In this document: piece after piece, positions 4,830-18,636 of the stretch
How positions within the stretch are numbered: the first letter of the stretch is position 1
Layout of the letters: every line of letters starts with the position of its first letter
Assembly (NCBI GenBank): GCA_021737785.1
Contig: JAIPDI010000031.1
Span: 1-64,000, forward strand
Length of the DNA stretch: 64,000 nucleotides
DNA from: Deltaproteobacteria bacterium
Lineage (GTDB): Bacteria > Desulfobacterota > DSM-4660 > Desulfatiglandales > Desulfatiglandaceae
Reading direction: 5' to 3'
The notes under the pieces: generated by a model
Databases searched by the model: none
Seen by the model: only the letters and a program-made list of their open reading frames with translations
What the model was told of the DNA's origin: nothing
Made by a program: the position numbers and the translations under genes

Positions 4830-4838
4830 GAAAGATAG

Positions 4839-4952
4839 ATGAGCTGTCTGAAAGAATCAATAAGCGGGAATATATCGGCTGGACTTGCGGCCGAGGAGGC
4901 CCGTCGCTACGCCGAAAGTATTGTGGAGACGATTCGAGAGCCCCATTATTAA
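4839..4952 (+). pseudogene. N-terminal fragment of a PAS sensor protein
   Basis: A 37-codon reading frame ending in AAEEARRYAESIVETIREP, then His-Tyr-stop. This stretch matches the entry to the PAS domain of many bacterial sensor kinases, where it normally continues PLLVLD. The rest of the domain and kinase are missing, so this is probably a relic of a gene once located between korC and kaiC. It is too short to be functional. The match is from memory of the family motif. Confidence 0.55.
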
Positions 4953-4982
4953 AATTAACTCATATGGATAAGGTGCTGGGCC

Positions 4983-6737
4983 ATGACCGTGCATAAGGCA
5001 AAGTCGAAACAGGGTGTTGATGTTCTTCAAAAATGCCCGACGGGCATCAGGGGTCTCGATGAAATCACCAAGGGAGGGCTTCCGAGGGGCAGGCCCACGC
5101 TGATCTGCGGCGGTGCGGGCGCGGGCAAAACACTTTTCGCCATGGAATTTCTAATGCGGGGCGCCATGGAGTACGGAGAACCCGGGGTCTTCATAACCTT
5201 CGAGGAGACGCCGGAGGATCTTGCGAAGAACTTCATGTCCCTCGGTTTTGATCTCCATGAGATGATGGCGCGGGGTCTCATCGAAACGGATCACATCCGC
5301 ATCGCGAGAAGTGAGATTGAGGAGACGGGTGAGTACGATCTGGAGGGATTGTTCATCCGGCTGGGGAGCGCCATTGACTCCATTGGAGCGAAACGGGTTG
5401 TCTTGGATACCATCGAAGCCCTTTTTTCCGAGCTGCCGAATGCCACCATCCTTCGGGCAGAGCTTCGTCGGCTTTTTCACTGGTTGAAAGACCGTGGCGT
5501 GACAGCCGTCGTTACGGGAGAAAAGGGCGACAAGACACTGACACGCTACGGACTCGAAGAATATGTCGCCGATTGCGTGATCTTCCTCGATTTCCGCATC
5601 GTGAAACAAATTGCCACCCGCCGCCTGCGTATTATTAAGTACCGCGGTTCATCTCACGGCCCCGACGAGTATCCCTTCCTGATAGGCGAGGAAGGCCTCT
5701 CGATCCTGCCCATCACCTCCATCGGGCTCGACTACCCCGTTTCCACGGAGCGCATCTCCACGGGCGTTCCCAAGTTGGATGCCATGTTTGACGGCAAGGG
5801 GTTCTACCGGGGCAGCACCATCCTCGTCTCCGGTACAGCAGGCACAGGCAAGACAAGTCTGTCGAGCACCTTTGCCGACGCCGCCTGCCGGCGAGGGGAG
5901 CGCTGCCTCTATTTTGCCTTCGAAGAATCGCCCAGACAGATCATCCGGAACATGGGCTCCATCGGCATGGATCTCAATCAATGGGTGAAGAAGGGGCTTC
6001 TCGAGTTCCATTCAGCCCGGCCTACGCTTTACGGCCTTGAGATGCACCTCGTCACCTTCCACAAGGCGATCGAGGCGTTCAAACCCCGGATTTTCATCGT
6101 GGACCCCATCAGCAACCTGATCAATGTGGGAACCGCATCAGAAGTGAAATCCATATTAACGCGCCTTATCGACTATTTGAAGATGCAAAAGATCTCCACC
6201 CTCCTTACCGACCTCACCCATTTCGGCAGCAGCGTTGAACGCACAAGCGAAGAGATATCTTCGCTGATCGATACGTGGCTTCTCCTGCGGGATATCGAAC
6301 TCCATGGGGAACGAAACCGGGGGCTCTACATTTTAAAATCCCGCGGCATGCCCCACTCCAATCAGATTCAGGAGTTCCTCCTCTCGAACCAGGGCATTAA
6401 CCTTGTTGACATCTATACCGGCTCCGGCGAGGTATTGACCGGCAGTGCCCGGGCAATCCAGGAAGGCAAGGAAAAGGCCTCTGAGCTGGCGCGCCAACGT
6501 GAGGTGGATCGTAAGTTCCGCGAGCAGGAGCGCAAGAGAAAGACCCTGGAAGCAAAAATGGCAGCCCTCCGCGCCCAATTGGATGCGGAATCCGAAGAAC
6601 TGCGTTTGATGGCGGAAGAAGAGCGGCGAAGGCAGGCTGCCCTGGCAGACAACCGTTCGGAAATAGCGCATCTCCGCAAGGGGGAACCTTCGGCAGCCCG
6701 ACGAAAGGCTCGAAAAAGAAGCGGGAAAGGAGATTAG
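4983..6737 (+). CDS. kaiC: KaiC-like double RecA-domain ATPase
   Basis: A 584-residue KaiC homologue with both halves present: CI Walker A GGAGAGKT (43-50) with catalytic glutamates E74/E75, and CII Walker A GTAGTGKT (284-291) with E314/E315. The CII segment [11 protein letters not shown] (421-431) aligns with the cyanobacterial phosphosite segment; Ser426 and Ser427 replace the Ser-Thr pair and Thr421 may match the third site. After about residue 490 a charged coiled coil of some 70 residues extends beyond standard KaiC (about 519 residues). It heads an operon with two kaiB genes and a sigma-54 activator. Outside cyanobacteria such proteins are linked to stress or timing; kaiA is not seen here. 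Confidence 0.93.
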
Positions 6738-6738
6738 C

Positions 6739-7071
6739 ATGAAACCCGTCTCGCCAGGGAAGGGAAAGAAGGCAACGGCCGGTTCAACGGAAGAGATCTG
6801 GAATCTCCGGTTATATGTCGCCGGCCAGACCCCGAAATCGATTACGGCCCTTGCCAATCTGAAGACGATCTGCGAAGAGCACCTCGCGGGGAAATACAAC
6901 ATTGAAGTGATAGACCTTTTGCAGAAACCCCAGCTTGCCAAAGGGGATCAGATTATTGCCGTACCGACACTGGTAAGGAAGCTTCCGGAACCGCTCAAAA
7001 AGATCATCGGAGATCTGGCCAACACGGAGCGCGTCCTGGTGGGTCTCGATATTCGTTCCGGCTCCGGATAA
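6739..7071 (+). CDS. kaiB: KaiB-like protein (first copy)
   Basis: A 110-residue KaiB homologue: [12 protein letters not shown] strand-loop (about 24-35), [16 protein letters not shown] (about 57-72), [11 protein letters not shown] and the C-terminal [14 protein letters not shown]. KaiB binds the KaiC CI ring after a fold switch into a thioredoxin-like form. It starts 1 bp after the kaiC stop, with AAAGGAGA as ribosome site. About 20 extra residues at the N-terminus precede the KaiB core. A second, divergent kaiB follows 25 bp downstream. Confidence 0.93.
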
Positions 7072-7096
7072 TAGAATTACTTTTGGAGTAACAGAG

Positions 7097-7441
7097 ATGG
7101 CGGTGAAGAGAGGGAAAACCCGTGCTGAGGCACTCGAAAAGGCCACAGCGGGGCGAGAAAGCGAAGGGTATGTTCTTCGGCTGTATGTTACCGGGTTGAC
7201 CCCGCGGTCAACCCTGGCCATCGCCAATGTCCGGAAAATCTGTGACCAACACCTGGCGGGCCGTTACGAACTCAAGGTGATAGACCTCTACCAACAGCCC
7301 AGGCTGGCCAAGGGAGAACAGATTATTGCAGCGCCAACGCTCATCAAAACGCTCCCCCTGCCGCTCCGCAGGCTCATCGGCGACATGTCGGATACGGAGA
7401 AGGTTCTTATGGGCATGGATCTGAAACCCCGGACATCCTGA
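7097..7441 (+). CDS. kaiB: KaiB-like protein (second copy)
   Basis: A 114-residue KaiB homologue with the same motifs as its neighbour: [53 protein letters not shown]. The two copies are clearly paralogous but diverged throughout, so this is an old duplication or two distinct KaiB classes rather than a recent copy. A TTGGAG site precedes the ATG. It ends 10 bp before the sigma-54 activator gene, consistent with one transcript. Confidence 0.93.
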
Positions 7442-7451
7442 GTGTGCGTCC

Positions 7452-9050
7452 ATGAGCAAATCGGATAAAACACGCCAACACCTTTTGGATGAGTTGGAGG
7501 AACTCACATCGCGGCTGATGGAAGCTGAGGAGACCCTGCGCGCCATCCAGGGCGGTGAGGTGGATGGCCTGGTTGTCTCAACCGCGGAAGGAGATCGCGT
7601 CTTTACACTATCGGGTGCCGATCATCCTTACAGGGTCATGGTCGAAACCATGAACGAAGGGGCCGTCACCTTTGCCCCCGACGGTACGATCCTTTACTGC
7701 AACCAAAGTTTTGCAGATATCGTCAACGTGTCTCTGGAAAAAGCCATAGGATCTTCAATCTACCGATACGTTTCATCAACAGACCTTCAGCTGTTTGAGG
7801 CATTGATTGAGCGGGGTTTAGAAGGGAACGGCAAGGGGGAACTGGCGTTACAGGCCGCAGGTGAAATTTCCGTACCTGTCTTACTTTCCATAAGCGGCCT
7901 TCGGAACGCGGATATGCCCGGTGCAGTGTGCGCCGTCATGGTGGACATCACCGAGCGGAAGGAGATGGAGGAGGCCTTAAAAAGATCCTACAACGAACTG
8001 GAACGACAAACCGTCGAAATTCGGACGGCTCTCTCTGAAATCAAAGTATTGAAAGACCAGCTCGAGGCCGAGAATATTTACCTTCGTCAAGAGAGCAAAA
8101 TGAAACATCACCTCGACCATATTCTCGGGGAAAGTGATGCGCTCAAGTATGTTCTCTATCGAGCGGAGCAGGTCGCTCCTACGAACACAACGGTCCTCAT
8201 CCTTGGCGAGACCGGTACGGGAAAGGAGCTGATCGCCGCCGCCATCCATAACATGAGCCCTCGCAAGAATCGGCCCCTGATCACCGTCAACTGCGCCGCC
8301 CTGCCGGCCAATTTGATGGAGAGCGAATTGTTCGGCCGGGAGAAAGGGGCATTTACCGGGGCCGATACCCGCCAGGCAGGCCGGTTCGAGGTCGCCAATG
8401 GTTCCACCATCTGTCTTGACGAGATCGGGGAACTGCCGCTGGAACTGCAGGCAAAGCTCCTTCGGGTCATCCAGCATAATGAATTTGAGCGCCTGGGCTC
8501 ATCTCATACCATCAAGGTGGATGTGCGGATCGTGGCGACGACCAATCGAAACCTTGAGGAAGAGGTCCGCGAGGGGCGATTCCGGAAGGACCTTTACTAT
8601 CGGCTCAACGTTTTCCCCATCACTGTCCCTCCCCTGCGGCAGAGGAAAGAAGACATCCCGTTGTTGGTCAAGACCTTCCTGTCGCGATATGCCAGGAAAT
8701 TGGGGAAACAGATCACGTCGATCCAGAAGGAGACGATGAAGGCCCTGCAGGATTATTCGTGGCCAGGGAACGTCCGGGAGCTGGAAAGCGTCCTTGAACG
8801 GGCCGTGATCCTGTGCCCCGGGCCGGCCTTGCAGTTGGCGGATAAACTGGAGTTTTCCTTCCTCTCCCCGTCATCCGGCGTAAGAACCCTCGAAGAGGCG
8901 GAGCGAAACCAAATCCTCGAGATCCTTTCGGAATGCCGATGGCGCATCGAGGGAAAGGAGGGGGCCGCGGCGATCCTGGGTCTCCACCCGAGCACCTTGA
9001 GAGCGAGGATGCATAAGCTCGGAATCGTGCGTCCGGCGACCAATGAGTGA
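7452..9050 (+). CDS. PAS-AAA+-Fis sigma-54-dependent transcriptional activator
   Basis: A 532-residue enhancer-binding protein. Order: N-terminal helix with [16 protein letters not shown] (about 27-42), PAS domain (about 57-170), coiled coil (about 172-215), sigma-54 AAA+ domain with Walker A GETGTGKE (252-259), the sigma-54 contact loop GAFTGA (299-304), Walker B LDEIGE, the GNVRELE motif, and a Fis-type helix-turn-helix at the end (about 490-530). It has no receiver, so control is probably through PAS or a partner. As last gene of the kai operon it is the natural candidate to bind the palindromic sites found 30 bp downstream and three more times in the window. Confidence 0.93.
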
Positions 9051-9079
9051 GATTGAGAACCGGCTCTCCTTAAAAACTC

Positions 9080-9113
9080 CCTCAATATATTGAGGTTCCA
9101 CCAAATATTGAGG
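9080..9113. promoter_or_regulatory. Double upstream activator site, copy A
   Basis: A perfect 16-bp palindrome CCTCAATATATTGAGG (9080-9095) is followed 2 bp later by a related site CCACCAAATATTGAGG (9098-9113), so the two sites are 18 bp centre to centre. It lies about 115 bp before a -24/-12 promoter, the normal enhancer distance for sigma-54. The same arrangement recurs at 11358, 16703 and 17484. Binding by the activator at 7452-9050 is inferred. Confidence 0.75.
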
Positions 9114-9210
9114 CCAAACCCATCGGTTCACCCTTCCCTACGCTTTTCCCCCATTCATCTAATCCACTGTTATTACGGGATGATTCCAAATTCTCTCCTT
9201 TTCCGGTTCC

Positions 9211-9226
9211 TGGCAGGCCGCTTGCA
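9211..9226 (+). promoter_or_regulatory. Sigma-54 promoter, copy A
   Basis: TGGCAGGCCGCTTGCA has GG and GC separated by exactly 10 bases, the -24/-12 signature. Transcription should begin near 9237 and read into the CrtI-like gene at 9356 after a leader of about 120 bases. Confidence 0.8.
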
Positions 9227-9238
9227 AAGACGATCCGC

Positions 9239-9304
9239 ATGATCCTGGTCACCACACCCAAGAGAGAATTCTTGTCATTTTATTGGGGAGGGGATATGAC
9301 TTAG
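9239..9304 (+). pseudogene. Relic start of an ABM monooxygenase gene (copy A)
   Basis: The first codons after the predicted transcription start read MILVTTP, matching the MILVITR and MILVIIR starts of the intact genes at 16862 and 17643. The frame then departs and stops after 21 codons. It marks where the duplicated promoter block was joined to other DNA. Confidence 0.5.
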
Positions 9305-9355
9305 CGAAGGGCTATGAAAGTTTTTTCGCGCCCTAAGTGCTGAAAGAACGATGAT

Positions 9356-10888
9356 ATGACGGATTTTGACGCCATAGTGGTCGGCAGCGGCGCCGGCGGG
9401 CTCAGCGCTGCGTTGCGCATGGCCCAGCAGGATGTATCGGTCTTAGTTCTCGAGGCCATGCCCTCTTTCGGAGGGTATCTGAATCCATTTGTTCGTAACG
9501 GCTACCGGTTCGACACCGGTCTCCATTACCTGGGAAAGCTCGGCAGGGGGGGTACATTCCGGCTTCTTCTGGAGCTGCTGGGGCTTGATGGAAGGCTTGA
9601 TTTCGTCGAACTTGACCCGGACGGTTTCGACCGCTACGTGTTTCCGGATTTTGAAGTCAGGCTCTGTAAAGGAAAGGAGCGCTACCAGGAGCGGCTGCAG
9701 CGTCTTTTTCCTCAAGAATCCAAGGCTATTGAACGATATTTCAATGTGATCGACAGTTTGCTGAGGGTCTTCTCCGATCCCCACGGCCCCCCCAAGAGCT
9801 TGCTGGATCGCTTGCGGTATGTCTTCAGACATCCGGTCCTGATAAAATATCACCGCGCCACCTATCAACAGATGCTGAACGGCATCACCCGCAACCCGCG
9901 CCTGCAGGCGGCCCTGTCGGCCCACTGCGGCAACAGCGGACTGCCCCCCGAGCGCGCTTCGGCCTTTTTGTGCATGATGCTGCTGGACCATTATCTGGAC
10001 GGGGCCTACTACCCCAAAGGCGGCAGCGCGGCCCTTCGGGATGCGCTTGTGACGGCCTTGATGCAAAAAAACGGCGTTTTGAAGAACCGGACGCCGGTGA
10101 CCGGCATACACCGGTCCGGCACGGAATTTATCGTTACCGACCGGTCCGGCGAGACAGTCTCGGCCAGAACGGTCATCAGCAATGTGGATCCGCTGATCGC
10201 ATTCCAGAAGTTAGTCGATCCAGGGATTATCCCTCGGTCGATTAAAAAAAAGGTGGCTCGACTGCGGCCATCTGCGGGTTCGTTTTACGCATTTATCGGA
10301 ACGCGTATTGATCCGGCCGCGGCCGGCCTGACTGACGCCAACATCATCCATTTCGAATATACGGATGTAAACCGGACCTTCGCTTCCATTGACGGGCGGC
10401 AGGGGTCGGACCCGTTCCCCTATTACTTCGTGACATCACCCTCTTTGAAAGATCCGGATCATCGGCACGCCCCTGACGGTTGTCACACCCTCGAGATCAT
10501 CAGTGGATTGGGTTATGAGCACCCCTTCACGCCCTGGTCCGGCACCCGGAGCCGCGGGCGCGGCGGCGAATATTTACGGTTAAAGAACCAGATCGGAATG
10601 AGCCTCGTCCGGTCGGCCGAACGCTATATCCCAGGTCTTAGCAGCGAACTCGATTATGTCGAATTCGCCACGCCGCTCTCCAATGAATACTGGGTCAACA
10701 GCTTTGGCGGGGGAAATTTCGGGCTCGAACAGACCCCGGACCAATTCGGCCCCGGACGTTTTTGCGATTGCACGACCGGCATCCAAGGACTTTTTGTGGT
10801 GGGGGCCGGCGCCATCTGCGCGGGCGTGTTGAGCTGCATGGCCTCAGGCGTCTGGGCCGCCGACAAGGCCGTCGAGTTTCTCGGTTGA
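9356..10888 (+). CDS. CrtI/RetSat-like FAD-dependent oxidoreductase
   Basis: A 510-residue flavoprotein of the phytoene desaturase / carotenoid isomerase / retinol saturase superfamily. The N-terminus has the dinucleotide-binding VGSGAGGLSAALRMA fold (about residues 9-23) with the acidic end of beta-2 (LVLEA); the C-terminus has the second FAD motif GIQGLFVVGAGAICAG (about 473-488). No other carotenoid genes are in the window, so the substrate is unknown. It is the first intact gene after sigma-54 promoter A. Confidence 0.85.
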   Translation: MTDFDAIVVGSGAGGLSAALRMAQQDVSVLVLEAMPSFGGYLNPFVRNGYRFDTGLHYLGKLGRGGTFRLLLELLGLDGRLDFVELDPDGFDRYVFPDFEVRLCKGKERYQERLQRLFPQESKAIERYFNVIDSLLRVFSDPHGPPKSLLDRLRYVFRHPVLIKYHRATYQQMLNGITRNPRLQAALSAHCGNSGLPPERASAFLCMMLLDHYLDGAYYPKGGSAALRDALVTALMQKNGVLKNRTPVTGIHRSGTEFIVTDRSGETVSARTVISNVDPLIAFQKLVDPGIIPRSIKKKVARLRPSAGSFYAFIGTRIDPAAAGLTDANIIHFEYTDVNRTFASIDGRQGSDPFPYYFVTSPSLKDPDHRHAPDGCHTLEIISGLGYEHPFTPWSGTRSRGRGGEYLRLKNQIGMSLVRSAERYIPGLSSELDYVEFATPLSNEYWVNSFGGGNFGLEQTPDQFGPGRFCDCTTGIQGLFVVGAGAICAGVLSCMASGVWAADKAVEFLG

Positions 10889-10929
10889 CAATGCCGCCAA
10901 TATGTCATGACAGGTATCACAGCTTGATC

Positions 10930-11226
10930 TATAGTTTTTCAGAAATTAAATTTCACAAATTTTCCGCTGAGGTTGCCAGAGTAGGTTGGGTAGAGCGTAG
11001 CGAAACCCAACGAACGGGCGGTGACCATCACCCGCCGCCAAAATTGTTGGGTTACGCTTAACATGCTGGATTGAAATACATTCCAGCCATCACTGCCTGT
11101 TTGACGAAGGCATGTTTGCAACCTTTCCCGACGCTAACCCAACCTACGCGGCGAAGACCCTGCAACGGACATCTCCGGATTGAGGTTTCAAAATCAAACT
11201 GGAAATTATTTATCTGAAAAACTATA
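10930..11226. mobile_element. MITE-like element with terminal inverted repeats
   Basis: TATAGTTTTTCAGA at 10930-10943 is an exact inverted copy of TCTGAAAAACTATA at 11213-11226, and the similarity extends inward with mismatches to about 25 bp. Inside lie palindromic GTAGGTTGGG...CCCAACCTACG arms of a widespread repeat type. About 297 bp, no coding frame. No target duplication is obvious. Confidence 0.6.
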
Positions 11227-11271
11227 AAAGAACAGGCGGGGCCTTCGAGCGCTCCAAGGTCCTTTCGGAAT

Positions 11272-11334
11272 ACCTTGAGAGTGAGGAACCATAAGCTCGG
11301 GATCCTCCGTCCGGAGACCAAGGAGTCAGATTAA
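11272..11334 (+). pseudogene. Relic of the 3' end of the kai-linked sigma-54 activator gene
   Basis: The 20 codons before the TAA read TLRVRNHKLGILRPETKESD, against [18 protein letters not shown] at the end of the activator encoded at 7452-9050. The resemblance continues in DNA upstream with an indel and downstream through the activator sites and promoter. It shows that copy B of the promoter block was duplicated together with the end of the activator gene. Confidence 0.75.
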
Positions 11335-11357
11335 GATCCGGTTCTCCTTAAAGACTC

Positions 11358-11391
11358 CCTCAATATATTGAGGTTCCACCAAATATTGAGG
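11358..11391. promoter_or_regulatory. Double upstream activator site, copy B
   Basis: A perfect palindrome CCTCAATATATTGAGG (11358-11373) and CCACCAAATATTGAGG (11376-11391), identical to copy A in sequence and spacing. It precedes the sigma-54 promoter at 11489. Confidence 0.75.
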
Positions 11392-11488
11392 CCAAACCCA
11401 TCGGTTCACCCTTCCCTACGCTTTTCGTCAATTCATATAATACTCTGTTATTACAGAATAATTCCAAATTCTTTCCTTTTCCGATTCC

Positions 11489-11504
11489 TGGCAGGCCACT
11501 TGCA
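11489..11504 (+). promoter_or_regulatory. Sigma-54 promoter, copy B
   Basis: TGGCAGGCCACTTGCA with GG-N10-GC spacing. The predicted start is near 11515. A short relic frame (MNLIISSG, 11517-11579) begins 2 bases later, as in the other copies. The first real gene downstream is the CsbD gene at 11643. Confidence 0.8.
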
Positions 11505-11642
11505 GTGATGATCGGCATGAACCTGATTATCAGCAGCGGGCAAAAAGAGTCCGGATGCGCGGTCCCAGCCAGAGGATGAATGACCGGGATGACAGGGACC
11601 AACGTGCCATTACGAGAACCCAATTACGAAAGGAGAAACACC

Positions 11643-11822
11643 ATGAAATCAAGCACAAAAGACCAAGCGGAAGGCACGTTTCACAAAGTGAAAGGCAAGA
11701 TCAAGGAGGTTGCCGGGAAGGTGAGCATGAATGCTGACTTGGAAGCCACAGGCAAAGAGGAAAAGCTTGCCGGAAAAGTCCAGGAAAAAATCGGCGAACT
11801 CGAGAAGGTCCTGGGTAAGTAG
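11643..11822 (+). CDS. CsbD-family stress protein
   Basis: A 59-residue hydrophilic protein with the CsbD pattern: KDQAEGTFHKVKGKIKEVAG, then LEATGKEEKLAGKVQEKIGE. Such proteins are induced in stress in many bacteria; their mechanism is unknown. The start at 11643 follows GAAAGGAGAAACACC. It is the first complete gene behind sigma-54 promoter B and is followed 14 bp later by a response regulator. A second CsbD gene lies at 19241. Confidence 0.9.
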   Translation: MKSSTKDQAEGTFHKVKGKIKEVAGKVSMNADLEATGKEEKLAGKVQEKIGELEKVLGK

Positions 11823-11836
11823 AAAGGAGTCGTGGG

Positions 11837-12262
11837 ATGGGAGAGGCCAAGAAAGAGGCGAAAGACGATGCAGCCCCGAACGTAGGGCAAGCCATATCCG
11901 GACGTATCCTGGTGGCTGAGGACAATAAGGACATTAAGGATATGGTTTCCAGGTTCCTTAAGTATATCGGATTTGAGGTTGCCCTTGCCGGCAACGGTCT
12001 CGAAGCACTCTCTCTGTTTCTCAATGCCTCTTTCGATCTGGTTCTAACCGACCTTGACATGCCGGATATGGACGGTTGGGGCTTGACAAGCTGCATTAAG
12101 AAAAGGTCGCCTGACACTCCGGTTGTATTGATGACGGGGGAGGATAGAGAGACCGTCCTGAGGGACGTGGAAAGATGGCCTGTTGACTCAGTCATATTCA
12201 AGCCCTTTGCACTGGAAGATCTTCAAAGGACAGTCCAAGGAGCCCTGGAGCTGAGGAGATGA
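11837..12262 (+). CDS. Single-domain response regulator
   Basis: A 141-residue protein: a polar 20-residue leader, then one receiver domain with the acidic pocket AEDN (about 27-30), the phospho-acceptor in LTDLDMPDMDG (Asp72), an LMTGE switch and FKPF with the conserved lysine. No output domain, so it should pass phosphate or act by protein contact. The hybrid kinase downstream (12883-16431) is a likely partner. Strong AGAAAGGAG ribosome site. Confidence 0.9.
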   Translation: MGEAKKEAKDDAAPNVGQAISGRILVAEDNKDIKDMVSRFLKYIGFEVALAGNGLEALSLFLNASFDLVLTDLDMPDMDGWGLTSCIKKRSPDTPVVLMTGEDRETVLRDVERWPVDSVIFKPFALEDLQRTVQGALELRR

Positions 12263-12429
12263 CCATAAAGTGCCTTTCGTGCCGCCAAAAAATCAGTGTC
12301 GCCGCCAACCGGATAAGATGGACCCCATTGGAGGGAGTTCACGGACCCACCTCCACTGACTCAAACAGCAAGAGAAAAACCTCATGTGTCATTCCTGCCC
12401 AAGGTTCGGCAAAACACATAGACCCCTGA
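12259..12429 (+). CDS. Possible small Cys-pair peptide (doubtful)
   Basis: A 56-codon frame starts in an ATGA overlap with the preceding response regulator gene and begins MTIKCLSCRQKI, a CxxC knuckle as in zinc ribbons. The rest shows no second Cys pair or conserved pattern. It may be a decayed or chance frame; only the coupling and the CxxC speak for it. Confidence 0.25.
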   Translation: MTIKCLSCRQKISVAANRIRWTPLEGVHGPTSTDSNSKRKTSCVIPAQGSAKHIDP

Positions 12430-12491
12430 TCGTATTCCGTGGATTGGGGAAATCCTGGCTCATGCAGAGCTGAGAAAGGAGGACAGATAAC

Positions 12492-12629
12492 ATGCAAATC
12501 AGTATGTCGCCACAGCCGGTGATTGCTCTAATCGCGGGAATTGCGATTCTCCTTGTCCCGAGGCTATTGAATTACATCGTTGCCATCTATCTCATCATAT
12601 TCGGCATTCTCGGGTTGGTTCGAATTTAA
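12492..12629 (+). CDS. DUF3096-family mini membrane protein
   Basis: A 45-residue, almost wholly hydrophobic protein. The segments IALIAGIAILLVPRLLNYIV and AIYLIIFGILGLVRI are diagnostic of DUF3096. Good ribosome site GAAAGGAGGA. These tiny proteins are often found beside CsbD, BON and lmo0937 genes, as here. Function unknown, probably inner-membrane. Confidence 0.85.
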   Translation: MQISMSPQPVIALIAGIAILLVPRLLNYIVAIYLIIFGILGLVRI

Positions 12630-12658
12630 GTGAAGACGCCGTTTAAAAGGAGGTGAAC

Positions 12659-12811
12659 ATGTTTTGGACCCTATTTGTGATTCTCGTGATTCTGTGGGGT
12701 CTCGGGGTCCTGGTTTTTCAAGTCATTCGAGATCGGTGTCGAAACATACAGGGGCGCGGTTTTAGTGAGGGGTTCCGTTTATTCCCAAAAGGGCGTCGAG
12801 AAATCGAGTGA
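12659..12811 (+). CDS. Divergent or shortened lmo0937-like mini membrane protein
   Basis: A 50-residue protein whose first 18 residues (MFWTLFVILVILWGLGVL) match the lmo0937-family protein encoded at 20766. The middle second helix is missing, and a polar tail follows (QVIRDRCRNIQGRGFSEGF). It therefore looks like an internal-deletion or fusion derivative of that family, with one membrane helix. Ribosome site AAAAGGAGGTG. Confidence 0.6.
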   Translation: MFWTLFVILVILWGLGVLVFQVIRDRCRNIQGRGFSEGFRLFPKGRREIE

Positions 12812-12882
12812 AATGGCCAGTGATGTCGAAGGGGTCAAATGATACGCGGCAAGAAAGAGGGGGTGACAAGGAAGCATTTGCT

Positions 12883-15800
12883 ATGAGGCCTACCTTTCAA
12901 AAATCAGGCGGGGAAGAGCAAAACAGCAAAAACCGCCGTCCTATCATCTTTATGTCTTTGGTTTTGTTCCTGACGGTGATGGCGCTGGTATGGTTCGGCT
13001 ACTCTTCGTGGCGCGCTTACCACACGATGAAAGCCGAAATTAAATCCTATTCCAGGATCATGGAACTTCGCAGCGACATCATCCACTTGGACGAGGTACT
13101 GACCATGTCTGCACGCCTGGCGGCCGCCACGGGCGACCTCTCCTGGGAGCAGCGCTATCGTATTTTCGAGCCTAAATTGGACACAGCCATAAAAGAGGCG
13201 GTACGGCTTGCCCCCCAGGTCTCTATCCGGGCTTCTGCAGAAACCGATGCCGCCAACAGCCTGCTGGTGGAGTTGGAAAACCGCGCCTTTGATCTTGTTC
13301 GCCGGGGGCGCACGGACGAAGCCGGTCGCCTCTTGTTCAGCGACGAATATGAAGAGCAAAAACGAATATACGCCCGGGGGATGGCCGAATTGGCCGTCGG
13401 TCTTTCTGCGGCTGCAGATGCCGCTCTTGCAGGTGAACGTCGCAATGCCTTGCTGCACATCGGGCTGGTTTTTGTGTTTATTCCGCTGTTGATTATCGGC
13501 TGGTTTGTTGTCTTTCGAGTTGTCAAGATCTGGGAGCGGACCCTCGTGAGCAAAACAGAGCTTGAAAAAGAGATAGAGGCCCGGAAACGTTCAGAGGAAA
13601 AGATCCATTTCCAAAAGATATATTTCGAAAGCCTGTTTCAGAATCTGCCGGACGGCGTGGTCACTTTTGACAAAGACGGGTATATTATTGAGATTAATAA
13701 AGCATTTGCCGAAATGTTCGGCTACACTCAGGCGGAAGTCAAAGGGACGGATATCTGCGAGCTGGTGGTGCCGCCGGACCGGAAAGAAGAAGCCGATGCC
13801 ATAAGGGAACGTATTTCAAGCGGCGAATCTGTAAACGTTGAAACCATCCGCAAACGCAAGGACGGTTCCCTGTTTGATGTCCACCTCCAGTCGGTGGCCG
13901 TATCGATCGACAGCCATTTGATGAGGCATATTTTTATTTACAGAGACGTTTCAGAGAAAAAAGAGCATGAAGCTGTTTTAATGCAATCCCGGTCCCTGGC
14001 CCAAAAGGAACACGCCAGGCTTTCCGCCATGATTTCCACCATGAATGAGGGGGTGATTTTTGCCGACAGCCGGAACATCATCACGGATGTCAATCCGTTT
14101 TTTTGCAGTTTTGTCGGCAGAAAATACGATGAGCTGATCGGAAAAGGGCTGGAGGAGTTTCATTCCGGCGATATCTTGAAAAAAATAATCGATCATATTA
14201 CCGCCTTTCGCACAAATATCGATTCAAAGGGGATCGAAATACAAAGAAAAATAGGGGCGTCGGAAGTGATTCTGCGGGTTCAGCCGATTTACCTGGCTAA
14301 TCATTACGAAGGCGTTCTTTTAAACGTTATTGACGTGACGGCTTTTGTTGAGGCCAGGCAGCAGGCCGAGGCGGCCAACCTCGCCAAGAGCGAATTTCTG
14401 GCCAACATGAGTCATGAAATCAGGACCCCCATGAACGGCGTCATCGGTATGACCGAGCTGCTCCTCGGAACCCATATCACCAAAGAGCAGCGTGATTACC
14501 TGGAGACGCTCAACACCTCGTCGGAGTATCTGCTCAATCTCATTAATGACATCCTGGACCTTTCCAGGATCGAGGCCGGCCGGCTTGAACTGGAAGAAAT
14601 CGACTTCGACCTGAGAACCACGCTCGAAGGGGCGGCCGGGGCGCTCTCGCCCAAGGCCCATGAAAAGGGCCTGGAACTGATCTGCCATATCGCACCCGAT
14701 GTCCCGACCGCCCTGATGGGAGATCCCGGCAGGCTTCGCCAGGTTATCCTCAATTTTACCGGCAATGCCATTAAATTCACCGAAAAGGGGCAGGTGGTCA
14801 TTGGGGCAAAGACCGAAAAAGAGGAGGAAACATCCACGACCTTGCATTTCACGGTTGGCGATACGGGCATCGGCATTCCCCCTGACAAGCTGGAGATGAT
14901 CTTCGAGAGTTTCAGGCAGGTGGACAGCTCCGTCACCCGGCGATACGGCGGGACGGGCCTGGGCCTGACCATATCCAGGCAGATCGTTCGGATGATGGGC
15001 GGCAGGGTTTGGGCGGAAAGCGAACCTGGAAAGGGAAGCGTCTTTCATTTTACAGTCCCCTTTACCCTCAGCCGGGCCGAAATCCGCAAACCCGTATCTC
15101 CTGATGCCATCGACATTGCCGGTATCCGTGCGCTCATCGTGGATGACAATGCCCTCAATCGACAAATATACAGGGAAATGCTCTCCAAATGGGGGCTCAT
15201 CCACGGTGAGGCACGGGACGGAGAAGGCGCCATCGAAGAGATAAAGCGGGCATTTGCGTCGGCGGAACCCTATCGTCTCATGCTGTTGGACTTCCAGATG
15301 CCCGGGATGGACGGGTTCGAACTGGCGGAAAAGGTCATGGAGAGCCCCTATGGGGAAGGCCTGGAGATTATCATGTTGACTTCCGCAGGCCAACCGGGAG
15401 ATGCGGAACGATGCAGGAAGATGGGTATCTCAGGCTATCTGCAGAAGCCGGCCAGAATGGCGAAGCTTTTGGATGCTGTTTTGATGGTTCTCGGCCGTCG
15501 CACTGATGGGCCACCTTCCCCTGTGACCCGTCACAGGGTTCAGGATGCCCGCATGAGATTGCATATCCTCCTGGCTGAAGACAATCCCATCAACCGGAAA
15601 GTGGCCTTCGAGGTATTGAAAAAAAGGGGTCACCGGGTGACGATGGTCGCAAACGGCCTTGAAGCGGTGAAGGCATTTGAACGGGAGCCCTTTGATTTGA
15701 TCCTCATGGACGTCCAGATGCCGGAGATGGATGGAATAGAGGCGACCAGGAGGATCAGAAGGTTAGAAGGTGAGAGGGGTGGAAGCGTAGAAGCTGAAAG

Positions 15801-16431
15801 CTCAGAGCTCAAAGGCAAAGAAGACTCTCCGCCTCGTTCCGAAAGGCATCCAGCATCCGGTATCCAGCATCCGGTATCCAGAATCCCGATCGTGGCCATG
15901 ACGGCCCATGCCCTGAAAGGGGATCGTGTAAAATGCCTCGAGGCCGGAATGGACGACTACGTGTCCAAGCCGGTCAAGGCGGAGGTGCTTTACCGGGTCA
16001 TCGAGAACCTGGTAAACACCAGGCAAAAGGACGATGAGGCTCGTACCACGGTTCTCCGTGTTCCCCCGGACCTGCCGGAGGACAGGGCTGTTTTCGACCT
16101 CTCCGCGGCCCTGGAGGCGGTGGGTGGAGACCGGACGCTTTTCCTTGAAATCGCCCGGCTTTTTCTGAGCGAGCTTCCCCAGGCCGTGAGCGACATCAGG
16201 GAGGCGGTCTCGAACAGCGACGCCTCTCGCCTGGAACAGGGGGCCCACAAGCTGAAGGGGTCCCTGTCGATTGTGGGCGCCAAACGGGCCTTTGATGCGG
16301 CCTATGGTCTGGAGGTCCTCGGCAGGGAAAAAAAGATGCAGGAGGCCCAACATGCAGTGGATGTGCTCTTGCAGGATCTTCAAGACCTGGAGTCCGCCCT
16401 TCGGATCAGCCTCAAGGAGGTTGACGCATGA
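12883..16431 (+). CDS. Hybrid sensor histidine kinase (PAS-PAS-HisKA-HATPase-REC-REC-HPt)
   Basis: An 1182-residue membrane kinase. Two membrane helices (about 21-43 and 190-212) bracket a helical periplasmic sensor. PAS domains follow at about 246-360 and 376-485, HisKA with NMSHEIRTPMNG (about 508-519), an ATPase domain with DTGIGIP and GGTGLGL, REC1 (phospho-acceptor in LLDFQMPGMDG), REC2 (LMDVQMPEMDG) and a C-terminal HPt with AHKLKGS. The ATG at 12883 is chosen because GGAAG precedes it and the membrane helix follows soon after. REC2 carries an unusual insert of about 35 residues (around 963-1002) encoded by repeat DNA. It likely phosphorelays to local receivers; a receiver gene overlapping its stop is truncated. 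Confidence 0.93.
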   Translation: MRPTFQKSGGEEQNSKNRRPIIFMSLVLFLTVMALVWFGYSSWRAYHTMKAEIKSYSRIMELRSDIIHLDEVLTMSARLAAATGDLSWEQRYRIFEPKLDTAIKEAVRLAPQVSIRASAETDAANSLLVELENRAFDLVRRGRTDEAGRLLFSDEYEEQKRIYARGMAELAVGLSAAADAALAGERRNALLHIGLVFVFIPLLIIGWFVVFRVVKIWERTLVSKTELEKEIEARKRSEEKIHFQKIYFESLFQNLPDGVVTFDKDGYIIEINKAFAEMFGYTQAEVKGTDICELVVPPDRKEEADAIRERISSGESVNVETIRKRKDGSLFDVHLQSVAVSIDSHLMRHIFIYRDVSEKKEHEAVLMQSRSLAQKEHARLSAMISTMNEGVIFADSRNIITDVNPFFCSFVGRKYDELIGKGLEEFHSGDILKKIIDHITAFRTNIDSKGIEIQRKIGASEVILRVQPIYLANHYEGVLLNVIDVTAFVEARQQAEAANLAKSEFLANMSHEIRTPMNGVIGMTELLLGTHITKEQRDYLETLNTSSEYLLNLINDILDLSRIEAGRLELEEIDFDLRTTLEGAAGALSPKAHEKGLELICHIAPDVPTALMGDPGRLRQVILNFTGNAIKFTEKGQVVIGAKTEKEEETSTTLHFTVGDTGIGIPPDKLEMIFESFRQVDSSVTRRYGGTGLGLTISRQIVRMMGGRVWAESEPGKGSVFHFTVPFTLSRAEIRKPVSPDAIDIAGIRALIVDDNALNRQIYREMLSKWGLIHGEARDGEGAIEEIKRAFASAEPYRLMLLDFQMPGMDGFELAEKVMESPYGEGLEIIMLTSAGQPGDAERCRKMGISGYLQKPARMAKLLDAVLMVLGRRTDGPPSPVTRHRVQDARMRLHILLAEDNPINRKVAFEVLKKRGHRVTMVANGLEAVKAFEREPFDLILMDVQMPEMDGIEATRRIRRLEGERGGSVEAESSELKGKEDSPPRSERHPASGIQHPVSRIPIVAMTAHALKGDRVKCLEAGMDDYVSKPVKAEVLYRVIENLVNTRQKDDEARTTVLRVPPDLPEDRAVFDLSAALEAVGGDRTLFLEIARLFLSELPQAVSDIREAVSNSDASRLEQGAHKLKGSLSIVGAKRAFDAAYGLEVLGREKKMQEAQHAVDVLLQDLQDLESALRISLKEVDA
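15850..15877. repeat. 14-bp tandem repeat inside the kinase gene
   Basis: Two exact copies of CCAGCATCCGGTAT, followed by a partial CCAGAATCC, lie in frame in REC2 of the hybrid kinase, encoding HPASGIQHPVSRIP. The period and sequence resemble the CCAGTATCCAGAAA tandem between korB and korC. They sit between helix 3 and strand 4 of the receiver, where an insertion can be tolerated. Confidence 0.75.
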
Positions 16432-16523
16432 AGATCCTGATCGTTGAAGACGATCCCGTCTCCATGAGGGTTTTGGAGGGCAGAGAGATCACCTCAATCT
16501 ATGTTTTGTTTATGGGAAGATGA
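16428..16523 (+). pseudogene. Truncated response-regulator gene
   Basis: The frame starts in an ATGA overlap with the kinase stop and reads MKILIVEDDPVSMRVLEG, the canonical first strand and acidic pocket of a receiver. It then loses similarity and stops after 31 codons. The rest of the receiver is gone; about 180 bp downstream promoter block C begins. It was probably the kinase's original partner, cut off by the rearrangement that brought in that block. Confidence 0.75.
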
Positions 16524-16702
16524 ATCGGGAAGAGCGGCATCTGAAGTACTCTTCAGGGACTCAGCACTCTGTCCCCTCAACACTGCTGATGGGCCATCAT
16601 CTATGAATGCATCCGACACATCCATACGCCCCCCCCCCAACAAAGGATGCAGATGGGGGAAATCCTGGTTGTCACAGCGGAACCGGCTCTCCTTAAAGAC
16701 TC

Positions 16703-16736
16703 CCTCAATATGTGGAGGTTCCACCAAATATTGAGG
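16703..16736. promoter_or_regulatory. Double upstream activator site, copy C
   Basis: CCTCAATATGTGGAGG (palindrome with a degenerate right half) and CCACCAAATATTGAGG, in the same order and spacing as copies A and B. It lies about 115 bp before sigma-54 promoter C. Confidence 0.75.
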
Positions 16737-16833
16737 CCAAACCCATCGGTTCACCCTTTCCTACGCTTTTTGCCCATTCATCTAATCTTCTGTTATTACA
16801 GTATTATTCCAGATATTCTCTTTTTTCGGTTCC

Positions 16834-16849
16834 TGGCAGGCCACTTGCA
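16834..16849 (+). promoter_or_regulatory. Sigma-54 promoter, copy C
   Basis: TGGCAGGCCACTTGCA, identical to copy B. The predicted transcription start (about 16860) is only 2 bases before the ATG of the monooxygenase gene, which would give an almost leaderless message. Confidence 0.82.
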
Positions 16850-16861
16850 GCTACGATCTGC

Positions 16862-17167
16862 ATGATACTGGTCATCACACGAATGAAGGTTCTTCCTGAG
16901 AAGCGCATGGAGCTGTCTCAGGCGATCACTTCCCTGATCGGTCCCATACGGACAGAGAAGGGATGCCTGCGCTGCGACTTTTGCCGGAGCATGGAGGATG
17001 AAAATGAACTCCATATCCTCGAAGAATGGAATACCGGGGAAAACCTGAACAGCCATCTGAAGTCCGACCGGTTTCGTGTACTTCGCGGGGCCATGAATCT
17101 TCTCCAGGAGCCCTGTGAAATGGTGTGCCACACCGTAGCAGGGGGAAAAAGGAAAAGGAGGGAGTGA
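16862..17167 (+). CDS. Antibiotic-biosynthesis-monooxygenase (ABM) domain protein, copy 1
   Basis: A 101-residue ABM-fold protein: first strand MILVITRMKVLPEKR, then GCLRCDFCRSMEDENEL, ILEEW (the conserved E-W of the domain) and LNSHLKSDRFRVL. ABM proteins are small dimeric ferredoxin-like folds that include quinol monooxygenases; the activity here is unknown. There is no ribosome site; the ATG lies 2 bases after the predicted sigma-54 start, and a later ATG would cut the first beta strand. A near-identical gene lies at 17643. The stop overlaps the next start (TGATG). Confidence 0.85.
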   Translation: MILVITRMKVLPEKRMELSQAITSLIGPIRTEKGCLRCDFCRSMEDENELHILEEWNTGENLNSHLKSDRFRVLRGAMNLLQEPCEMVCHTVAGGKRKRRE

Positions 17168-17376
17168 TGGAGAAAGCATGCAAGCCTCTTCAAAGAAGGG
17201 GGGAGAGGAATGTGTTCTGCCCTCTTTATAACCATTGTTTGAATCATGCAGTCAAGGAGTCCTGGGAATATTGGACCTGTCGTGATTGCCGGCATAAGCT
17301 CGATCGGGGAGCCAGGCCGGAGATGAAGCTTATGGTGAACGACTCAATTGAATATTCCGTTTTGATTTGGACTTGA
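17167..17376 (+). CDS. Small cysteine-rich (zinc-ribbon-like) protein
   Basis: A 69-residue protein with CPLYNHCLNHAVKESWEYW then CRDCRHK, a C-x5-C ... C-x2-C set able to bind one metal. Many short proteins of related bacteria share this kind of 'CP-(aromatic)-x3-C-x2-A' knuckle; I know no assigned function. An AAAGGAGGGAG site precedes the ATG, which overlaps the stop of the ABM gene, so both depend on promoter C. Confidence 0.7.
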   Translation: MEKACKPLQRRGERNVFCPLYNHCLNHAVKESWEYWTCRDCRHKLDRGARPEMKLMVNDSIEYSVLIWT

Positions 17377-17483
17377 TTCGAGGGCGCCATGTTTTTGAAC
17401 GGACCCGTATGGCGGCTCGAGTTGACCACGGTAGAATGGCCCAAGTAAGTTGCGCTTTTATACAGAATGGAGAAAAAAGATTC

Positions 17484-17517
17484 CCTCAATATATGGAGGT
17501 TCCACCAAATATTGAGG
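17484..17517. promoter_or_regulatory. Double upstream activator site, copy D
   Basis: CCTCAATATATGGAGG and CCACCAAATATTGAGG in the conserved arrangement. As in copy C, the first palindrome has lost its right-half TTGAGG, which reads TGGAGG. Confidence 0.75.
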
Positions 17518-17614
17518 CCAACCGACCGTTTCACCCTTCCCCACGTTTCTCTCCCATTCATATAATCTACCGTTATCTATACATTATTCCAATTTCCTTC
17601 CCCTCCCGGGGTGT

Positions 17615-17630
17615 TGGCAAGACTGTTGCA
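17615..17630 (+). promoter_or_regulatory. Sigma-54 promoter, copy D
   Basis: TGGCAAGACTGTTGCA with GG-N10-GC spacing. The spacer differs from the other three copies while the -24 and -12 elements are kept, which suggests selection for function. Predicted start about 17641, 2 bases before the ATG of the second ABM gene. Confidence 0.82.
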
Positions 17631-17642
17631 GCTACCATCTGC

Positions 17643-17957
17643 ATGATACTGGTCATCATACGAATGAAGGTTCTTCCTGAGAAGCGCATGGAGCTGTCCC
17701 AGGCGATCGGTTCCCTGATCGGCCCCATACGGACAGAGAAGGGATGCCTGCGCTGCGACTTCTGCCGGAGCGTGGAGGATGAAAATGAACTCCATATCCT
17801 CGAAGAATGGGATACCCGGGAAAACCTGAACAGCCATCTGAAGTCCGACCGGTTTCGTGTACTTCGCGGGGCGATGAACCTGCTCCAGGAGCCCTACGAA
17901 ATGGCGTCTCACACCGTAGCAGCGGGAAAAAGGAAAAGGGAGGTGTGGCCCCGGTAG
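17643..17957 (+). CDS. ABM-domain protein, copy 2
   Basis: A 104-residue paralogue of the protein encoded at 16862, with about ten substitutions over the shared 97 residues plus a different tail (KRKREVWPR). Same ABM motifs and the same near-leaderless placement behind sigma-54 promoter D. High DNA identity through promoter and gene shows a recent tandem duplication of the whole block. It leads a run of small stress and envelope genes. Confidence 0.85.
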   Translation: MILVIIRMKVLPEKRMELSQAIGSLIGPIRTEKGCLRCDFCRSVEDENELHILEEWDTRENLNSHLKSDRFRVLRGAMNLLQEPYEMASHTVAAGKRKREVWPR

Positions 17958-18066
17958 GGTGTGGTGCTTATGGGCAAACACGTCGGCCTGCAATCCAAAT
18001 ACTGCCTTTTCAGTGTATTGCGGGAAACACGGAGACAATCTTGAGAGAGAGAAAGGAGGATTGGCC

Positions 18067-18249
18067 ATGACAGTGATAACACTTCTTATTGCGATTATTG
18101 CGTTGATCATTGCGGTTCTGGCATTTCAACGAACCGGAGGGACTAAAGATCTCAAGAAAACCACAGCCGAGCTTTTGGCAAAGATGGAAAAAAGGATGCG
18201 AGAAGAAGAAGCGTCTAAGGTGGCGGAAAACGAAAAACTGGAGCAGTAA
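18067..18249 (+). CDS. Small single-helix membrane protein
   Basis: A 60-residue protein: an N-terminal membrane helix (TVITLLIAIIALIIAVLAF) followed by a highly charged helix (KKTTAELLAKMEKRMREEEA). No family recognised. The ATG at 18067 is preceded by AAAGGAGG; an upstream start at 17959 would add an unlikely polar stretch. Probably an inner-membrane protein with a cytoplasmic coil. Confidence 0.65.
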   Translation: MTVITLLIAIIALIIAVLAFQRTGGTKDLKKTTAELLAKMEKRMREEEASKVAENEKLEQ

Positions 18250-18378
18250 CCGAAACGTTATGGAAGGCATCAAACTCCGATGCCATGTAAAATAGCATCG
18301 TTATACGTGTTATCCGTCTGTTTTTAAAGGCATTCATCAATTGCAGCGGATCCGCCACGAATGTAAGGGAGGATAATC

Positions 18379-18636
18379 ATGTATTTTTCATTAATCATCA
18401 CCTTTTTACTTGTACTGGTAATCATCGTCACTGCGATACAGAACAGTATGCCTTTGGATTTCAAATTCTTGACCTGGACTTTTCAGCTGTCCATTACGGC
18501 CTTGATTGTTTATTCCTCCCTTTTGGGTGGCGCCATCGTGGCAATTTTGACCTTGCCAAAGCTGGCAAAAAAATCCCTTCATGCAAGGACCATGAACAAA
18601 GAGATTCATAAACTAAGGGAAAAGAGTGCAGGATAG
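18379..18636 (+). CDS. LapA-domain (DUF1049) inner-membrane protein
   Basis: An 85-residue protein with two membrane helices (about 3-20 and 41-61) around the short loop IQNSMPLDFKFLTWTFQLS, and a basic cytoplasmic coil at the end. This is the LapA (lipopolysaccharide assembly A) pattern, where the full protein helps regulate LPS synthesis through LapB/FtsH. GGGAGGAT precedes the ATG. No lapB is nearby. Confidence 0.85.
   Translation: MYFSLIITFLLVLVIIVTAIQNSMPLDFKFLTWTFQLSITALIVYSSLLGGAIVAILTLPKLAKKSLHARTMNKEIHKLREKSAG

Follow-up and report, generated by a model that had tools for sequence, protein, structure and literature searches.

Results

Organization of the locus

The window, the whole 64,000-nucleotide stretch of DNA that was analysed, contains kaiC, two kaiB genes and, directly downstream of them, a gene for a sigma-54-dependent activator (Table 1). 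The activator combines a PAS domain (E 8.1e-9), an AAA+ Sigma54_activat domain (PF00158, E 6.7e-72) and a Fis-type HTH domain (PF02954, E 2.1e-6, 27.8 bits against a cut-off of 22), and its translation includes the motif GAFTGA, which we take to be the GAFTGA loop of sigma-54 activators; by these three features it is assigned as a predicted sigma-54 enhancer-binding protein. RpoN is encoded in the genome by one match (PF04552, E 1.4e-60, contig C46). At E ≤ 1e-100, close relatives of the activator were present in 24 of the 61 genomes, and matches were obtained at 79 loci of named assemblies: the weakest are PAS-only, and the better ones are mainly labelled Syntrophaceae or Deltaproteobacteria, with a few Planctomycetia, Brocadiaceae and others. 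Going by these names, the window would belong near Syntrophia-type Desulfobacterota.

DNA similarity combined with a pattern search identified four enhancer–promoter blocks in the genome: A (9048), B (11328), C (16680) and D (17476), all on the same strand and within 9 kb. Each comprises a −24/−12 sigma-54 promoter and, with its palindrome centre 123 bp away, a 34-bp enhancer that departs from CCTCAATATATTGAGGTTCCACCAAATATTGAGG at two positions at most; a pattern search of the genome at ≤3 mismatches returned four sites, all of them in A–D. Across the window and its relatives, 63 of 72 block copies allowed enhancer and promoter to be located, and their distance was 123–125 bp in 56 of these. 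The bare −24/−12 pattern is weak by itself (7 occurrences in the window versus 2.9 expected); in block B this element lies at looping distance from the enhancer, the arrangement that marks a sigma-54 promoter. Judged by position, block A would drive a gene for an FAD oxidoreductase, block B the CsbD-family and response-regulator genes, and blocks C and D two ABM (monooxygenase-like) genes. No known structured RNA reached Rfam gathering scores in 8900–18000.

Two observations concern the stability of this region. Block D, its ABM gene and the genes that follow (17375–18631) form a segment kept in the same-genus genome G001 (contig C179, locus L157; 84% over 1.3 kb), so the D unit is not recent. 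The CsbD, BON and small-protein genes of the window are found on short contigs of G001 and G051 in other orders (L154, L158, L159, L161, L162), as if repeatedly rearranged.

Table 1. Features of the locus, with positions in the window and the basis of each assignment
Feature	Position	Strand	Basis
kaiC (double domain), kaiB, kaiB, directly upstream of activator	4983–7441	+	PF06745, E 3.9e-111; PF07689, E 2.5e-27 and 8.5e-25
Sigma-54 activator (PAS, AAA+ Sigma54_activat, Fis-type HTH), family that gave rise to the relic	7452–9050	+	Pfam
Block A enhancer, CCTCAATATATTGAGG + CCACCAAATATTGAGG	9080–9113	+	sequence/pattern
Block A sigma-54 −24/−12 promoter, TGGCAGGCCGCTTGC	9211–9225	+	pattern, geometry
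Block A ORF, MILVTTPKREFLSFYWGGDMT and stop; first ~20 bp like ABM gene start (15/17)	9239–9304	+	sequence match
MITE-like short inverted-repeat element, 297 bp, TIR TATAGTTTTTCAGA, inserted at TA	10930–11226		TIR, second copy, empty site
Probable continuation of activator relic, about 42 bp with indels	11230–11271	+	profile and global alignment
Activator 3'-end relic, 20 codons and TAA	11272–11334	+	blastn, shuffles, translation
Block B enhancer, same 34 bp as in block A	11358–11391	+	alignment, pattern
Block B sigma-54 promoter, TGGCAGGCCACTTGC	11489–11503	+	pattern, 123 bp from palindrome centre
Block B ORF, MNLIISSGQKESGCAVPARG and stop; first ~20 bp like ABM gene start (13/17)	11517–11579	+	sequence match
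CsbD-family gene, first intact gene after block B	11643–11822	+	PF05532, E 1.9e-14
Response-regulator receiver gene, second after block B	11837–12262	+	PF00072, E 2.7e-23
Block C (without relic) and intact ABM gene from 16862	16680–17167	+	DNA, Pfam, profile
Block D (without significant relic) and intact ABM gene from 17643	17476–17957	+	DNA, Pfam, profile

A remnant of the activator gene upstream of block B

Positions 11272–11331 translate as TLRVRNHKLGILRPETKESD, followed by TAA at 11332–11334; the matching C-terminal 18 residues of the activator are encoded at 8994–9047, followed by TGA. A blastn search with 8901–9360 against the window aligned 8994–9247 with 11272–11525 without gaps, 224 of 254 positions being identical (88.2%, E 7.8e-91). 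Local alignment of 8950–9260 with 11225–11540 scored 358, against a shuffle maximum of 31 (0/1000), and the coding part alone (8994–9050 versus 11272–11334) scored 70, against a maximum of 25 (0/2000); blastn and shuffles together rule out chance similarity. The preliminary description had derived 11272–11334 from the end of the activator and had placed the same sites and promoter behind it. Both statements hold: the coding DNA outscores all 2000 shuffles, the match (88%) continues ungapped to 11525, and the alignment by which the derivation was to be checked is the one scoring 358, far above shuffled sequence.

The relic ends in ILRPETKESD, as do relatives, and the activator of the window in IVRPATNE. 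Because it keeps this relative-like C-terminus, the relic of block B is a sister of today's gene end and no recent copy of it. Two of ten conserved HTH positions are changed in block B, and its relic has N where 44 copies of activator DNA have M or L. Between blocks A and B, the enhancer is identical at 34 of 34 bp and the coding relic at 51 of 60.

Further leftward, a profile built from 23 relatives carries the relic to 11230. Global alignment of 11228–11271 gave a score reached by 6 of 5000 shuffles with the activator of locus L035, by 45 of 5000 with the window's own activator and by 52 of 5000 with the family consensus; this 44-base piece retrieved no matches as the sole query of a profile search. 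A rival placement, a 15-base match at 8920–8934, was equalled in 44 of 2000 shuffles when the whole gene was used and in 19 of 2000 when only its last 133 bp were. Taken alone, the extension over 11228–11271 is moderately supported as activator-derived. Neither beyond 11230 nor leftward of the inserted element did the window show a longer relic, 650 of 1000 shuffles reaching the score obtained.

That element has the features of a MITE: terminal inverted repeats, a TA target, an empty site and more than one copy. The second copy in the genome lies at C9:99739–100037 (93%), and five short, partial matches to an inner part of the element (GTAGGTTGGGT...) lie in C15, C17 and C48. Contig C404 of G001 carries the same relic with the element site empty and a PLD-family gene closely upstream, so the element arrived after the relic existed.

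Among the blocks away from the activator gene (B, C and D), regulator DNA is present only at B. The profile match at block C starts at 16682, i.e. after the stop codon. A stretch at 17292–17346, joined to block D in the first profile search, gave E 0.038 alone and was dropped as an activator relic. The preliminary proposal that the blocks took regulator DNA along is thus borne out for B and unsupported for C and D.

Probable pairing of the activator with its operator

In most close relatives the palindrome starts 32–50 bp past the end of the activator gene, a few having an extra 60–120 bp; it is absent downstream of the activator in L029, L037, L038 (two genes), L050 and L063. We tabulated recognition helix against operator for the 68 activators whose helix could be read and whose downstream sequence was 200 bp or longer, relatedness among them being left in. 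Activators with the helix PSTL are followed by the CTCAA palindrome (≤3 mismatches) in 36 of 45 cases, one of which, L034, is a CTCGA variant, and by GGTCA in none; for the helix RSTL the corresponding site is TGGTCATATATGACCA in 12 of 14 cases and CTCAA in none, an agreement of 36:0 versus 0:12 in which the R class may represent one clade. Shuffled downstream DNA held the two sites in 6 and 1 of 1360 cases. Single departures are consistent with the pairing, the helix QSTLRAKM going with CATCAACATATTGATG. Neither site was found downstream of 9 of 45 P-class, 2 of 14 R-class and 3 of 6 A-class activators, close ones included (L037, L038 twice, L029, L050 and L063). More distant activators (L011–L021, L031, L033; L023/L034; L030) have other helices and other operators, GGTCATATATGACC, CCTCGACATGTCGAGG and CCGTTAAATATAACGG.

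The relic alone is evidence only that activator and site were linked; co-variation of helix and operator is the stronger evidence for their pairing. The pairing put forward in the preliminary description is upheld, more on these grounds than on the relic that had been offered for it.

Recurrent, graded remnants in relatives

A profile trained on loci picked for having the sites gave 156 hits, reduced by E value, length and identity filters to 72 distinct block copies. In 44 of these, block A included, the profile reached about 290 bp into the activator gene: 35 extend to residue 230, four stop at contig ends (L067, L070, L078, L086), and five are 5'-truncated with upstream DNA present. The five start at residues 287 (L074), 322 (L082), 389 (L088, 10133), 390 (L084) and 407 (L057, the first of its two), leaving 246, 211, 144, 143 and 126 codons before the block; 128 bp of other DNA precede the truncated activator of L057 (129–506). 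Barring assembly error, these would be intermediate stages between gene and relic.

Short 3' remnants away from an intact activator number seven in six genomes: block B of the window, C404 and C143 of G001, the second block of L035, L049, L088 (7924) and C448 of G026. The C404 relic lies outside the 72 copies, as its contig ends in the block, and was counted separately; L140 (22 bp coding), C201 (contig edge) and block D were left out of the relic count. Short and 5'-truncated remnants together make 12 copies in 9 genomes, and they look like decay stages of whole activator copies. With the relic-plus-block of B as DNA query, matches were obtained in only 8 of 118 genomes.

The short relics keep the original order of activator end and block; their lengths vary, with profile starts from 206 to 264. 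In C143, activator codons of about 445–458 are fused to about 508–532 at CCCGGGCC, and the promoter of the block is lost; CCCGGGCC recurs in C201 at the second place. C201 and C404 end at repeats, and their outer flanks lie beyond the contig. Where at least 90% of the 44 copies agree at an HTH position, the six short relics compared depart from it in 11 of 53 cells, versus 12 of 440 (Fisher 4e-6; the sequences are related and the 44 include the five truncated activators), which is indicative of a loss of protein constraint. The activator of L073 contains a stop codon. In a tree of 67 of the 72 block copies, the two copies of L088 pair together, A, B and C of the window group with G001 and L035 copies, and the relic copy of L049 stands apart from the other copy of its genome; these placements suggest several copying events. 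The relatives supply a stage series: long activator with block and ABM gene, activators of 126–246 codons, spliced remnant, 20-codon relic, block alone, and dead promoterless block.

A second, fainter fossil, of an ABM gene start

The preliminary description overlooked a second, weaker fossil, about 20 bp resembling the start of an ABM gene. It forms the beginning of the short ORFs behind blocks A and B, whose resemblance is limited to the first 20 bp or so. Block B is thus bracketed by two fossils, the clear 3' end of an activator and the faint 5' start of an ABM gene.

Homology to ABM genes begins at a fixed place, 12–14 bases past the −12 element. This holds for 19 of the 44 blocks that have activator DNA upstream, at least two of these frames being broken (L044, L084), and for 13 of 35 blocks whose activator reaches residue 230. 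Of the 19 query peptides used in this search, the small proteins at 12494, 12660, 18068 and 20767 had been read in a wrong frame, and their results were set aside. Since ABM genes start at a fixed place after many activator-linked blocks, the likely parent arrangement is activator, block and ABM gene. Among the 42 copies without a following ABM gene, 36 were testable (five had no found promoter and one was too short), and an ABM start of at least 13 of 17 bases was present in 16 of the 36 and in 3 of 7200 shuffles, at a threshold chosen after the sequences had been inspected; 20 of the 36 fall below it. Locus L088 has a truncated ABM frame ahead of CsbD.

Two further observations bear on the DNA behind the promoters. 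The intact ABM genes at 16862 and 17643 and those of relatives start 12–14 bases past the −12 element, which places them at about +3 of the predicted transcript and makes their messages look nearly leaderless. Transcript starts predicted from the −12 elements of A–D lie near 9237, 11515, 16860 and 17641. A second leader type, a short ORF reading roughly MILVISPKSEFLS, follows several blocks (L088 10133, L075, L007 and the window at 9239); it may be what is left of an ABM start or may encode a small peptide of its own.

Origin of block B

Homology, its recurrence in relatives, graded remnant lengths, conserved enhancer–promoter geometry and the empty element site are direct observations. The reading we consider very probable is that block B is a copied enhancer–promoter cassette that formerly lay between an activator and an ABM gene, and that the switch was retained while the gene ends eroded. 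After duplication, selection would have retained only the switch part, namely two binding sites and a sigma-54 promoter; the activator copy would have eroded from its 5' side to about 60–100 bp of 3' end, with about 20 bp of the ABM start still recognisable, and the small transposable element would have landed later at the outer edge of the relic. In its present form, block B is most likely a working promoter of the CsbD/response-regulator operon with passenger gene ends. On receiving its signal, the activator would bind the CTCAATATATTGAG palindrome and the neighbouring CAAATATTGAG site and contact, through a loop of about 125 bp, sigma-54 RNA polymerase at 11489–11503, whereupon transcription of the CsbD and response-regulator genes would be switched on.

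Two routes to this arrangement are compatible with one another. By the first, the relic was left by a complete second activator that decayed in place, from an order activator, A, oxidoreductase, second activator, B and CsbD; the converse is a copy that was partial from the start. Truncated activators with upstream DNA present make decay in place the more probable, and we hold this route at slightly better than even. It is favoured by the gradation from 5'-truncated activators (246–126 codons) to short relics, by the two non-adjacent activator pieces of C143, and by the relative-like C-terminus of the B relic. On one 11.5-kb contig, L057 has an intact activator frame (580 codons) as well as a truncated one, with a block after both. 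The preliminary description had suggested a search for relatives with two complete activator genes, and this returned assembly DNUI01, whose two long activators (L058 and L059) each extend at least to residue 230 and are each followed by a block, on separate contigs. No contig was found with two long activators each followed by a block; L038 has two activators on one contig, without a block. The lack of activator DNA in the window beyond 11230 or left of the element also speaks against the first route, as does the position of the C404 relic closely behind a PLD-family gene.

By the second route, to which we give a little less than an even chance, the arrangements of the window and of L035 differ by homologous recombination through the block, the oxidoreductase segment having been inserted or deleted. 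The L035 activator is 90% identical to that of the window, and its order is activator, block, CsbD and response regulator, with no oxidoreductase between; its genome, G051, has only a 51% oxidoreductase homologue, on another contig. The L035 block is A-like on the left (profile positions 307–333; 20/25 versus 15/24) and B-like on the right (466–516; 44/47 versus 38/47), as expected if the arrangements differ by recombination through the block. Against this, informative positions are few, and in the middle (368–465) L035 matches A and B equally well (76/94 and 77/94).

Retention of the relic for a function upstream of the enhancer, such as DNA bending, insulation or an auxiliary site, would agree with the recurrence of short relics in six genomes in the original order; we consider it improbable, as blocks C, D and others keep the enhancer–promoter geometry without a relic, relic lengths vary, and the relic diverges faster than the enhancer. 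That the block travels as cargo of a mobile element, or moves by itself as a mobile promoter, is scarcely credible, even though an inverted-repeat element abuts the relic and the blocks precede unrelated genes: all four blocks share one strand and a stretch of 9 kb, and cargo of the adjacent element is ruled out by the empty site in C404 and by the copy on C9, a contig in which the site search located no block.

Association with kai genes

The preliminary description had the blocks arising by duplication from the kai operon. The copied cassette of our preferred reading agrees with this in that B derives from DNA downstream of an activator; a kai origin finds no such agreement, the relics seen being of activator DNA only. 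Among activator-plus-block loci with 2.3 kb or more of sequence upstream, 10 of 32 have KaiB no more than 3.5 kb upstream (9 of 32 at 2.6 kb); the count is 9 of 28 after removal of four with 5'-truncated activators. The kai genes are thus frequent, optional neighbours of the activator–block–ABM unit. Upstream of kaiC, at 4830–4960, a short broken frame that by eye resembles the start of a PAS sensor (YAESIVETIREPHY, then a stop) is perhaps another gene remnant.

The available portion of PMC5520375 describes Kai modules outside cyanobacteria and treats the transcriptional readout of kaiC/kaiB as an open question in bacteria without RpaA. The present locus shares with those modules kaiC and kaiB and an unexplained readout; it differs from what that portion describes in that a sigma-54 activator lies directly downstream, making it a possible candidate for the readout factor. 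A fuller scenario, in which the kaiC–kaiB–kaiB-linked activator is the Kai readout and its regulon grew by copying of the adjacent promoter, the copies being date-stamped by eroding activator and ABM ends, is speculative and rather unlikely. If kai linkage does mean regulation, it becomes testable which transcription factor reads the Kai proteins without RpaA, the question raised in that part of PMC5520375.

Comparison with known systems

Among the matches listed in a search of open-licence papers, none dealt with this activator or its site, or with fossil gene ends attached to copied sigma-54 promoters. Rhizobial nifH/NifA-dependent sigma-54 promoters are reportedly reiterated together with a gene fragment. 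The likeness to those reiterations is the duplication of a sigma-54 promoter and activator site with coding DNA attached; the difference is that the fragment there is said to come from the target gene, whereas here the activator gene also contributes, in several lineages.

Mobile promoters are characterized by copies dispersed around the genome. No such dispersal was seen here, the four copies all lying within 9 kb. Homologous promoters do stand before non-homologous genes: A before the FAD oxidoreductase, B before CsbD, and C and D before ABM genes. Promoter propagation in prokaryotes has been described by Matus-Garcia et al. 2012 and van Passel et al. 2014, as cited in PMC8049555; relative to the mobile promoters outlined in the sections available of that paper, the present case is alike in having homologous promoter DNA before unrelated genes of one genome, and differs in that its copies are local and on the same strand and that B bears recognisable ends of both genes that flanked the parent. 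The enhancer-binding-protein regulons of Desulfovibrio vulgaris (PMC4641369, accessible text) are similar in that their activators neighbour operons which have sigma-54 promoters and a palindromic, AT-rich site; the main text has no match for CsbD, KaiC or 'duplicat'.

Promoter copying is already known, and the present case is an unusually legible variant of it. From such fossils the parentage of a regulatory site can be read directly in the sequence, so that an uncharacterised activator can be assigned its operator and likely regulon ahead of any experiment.
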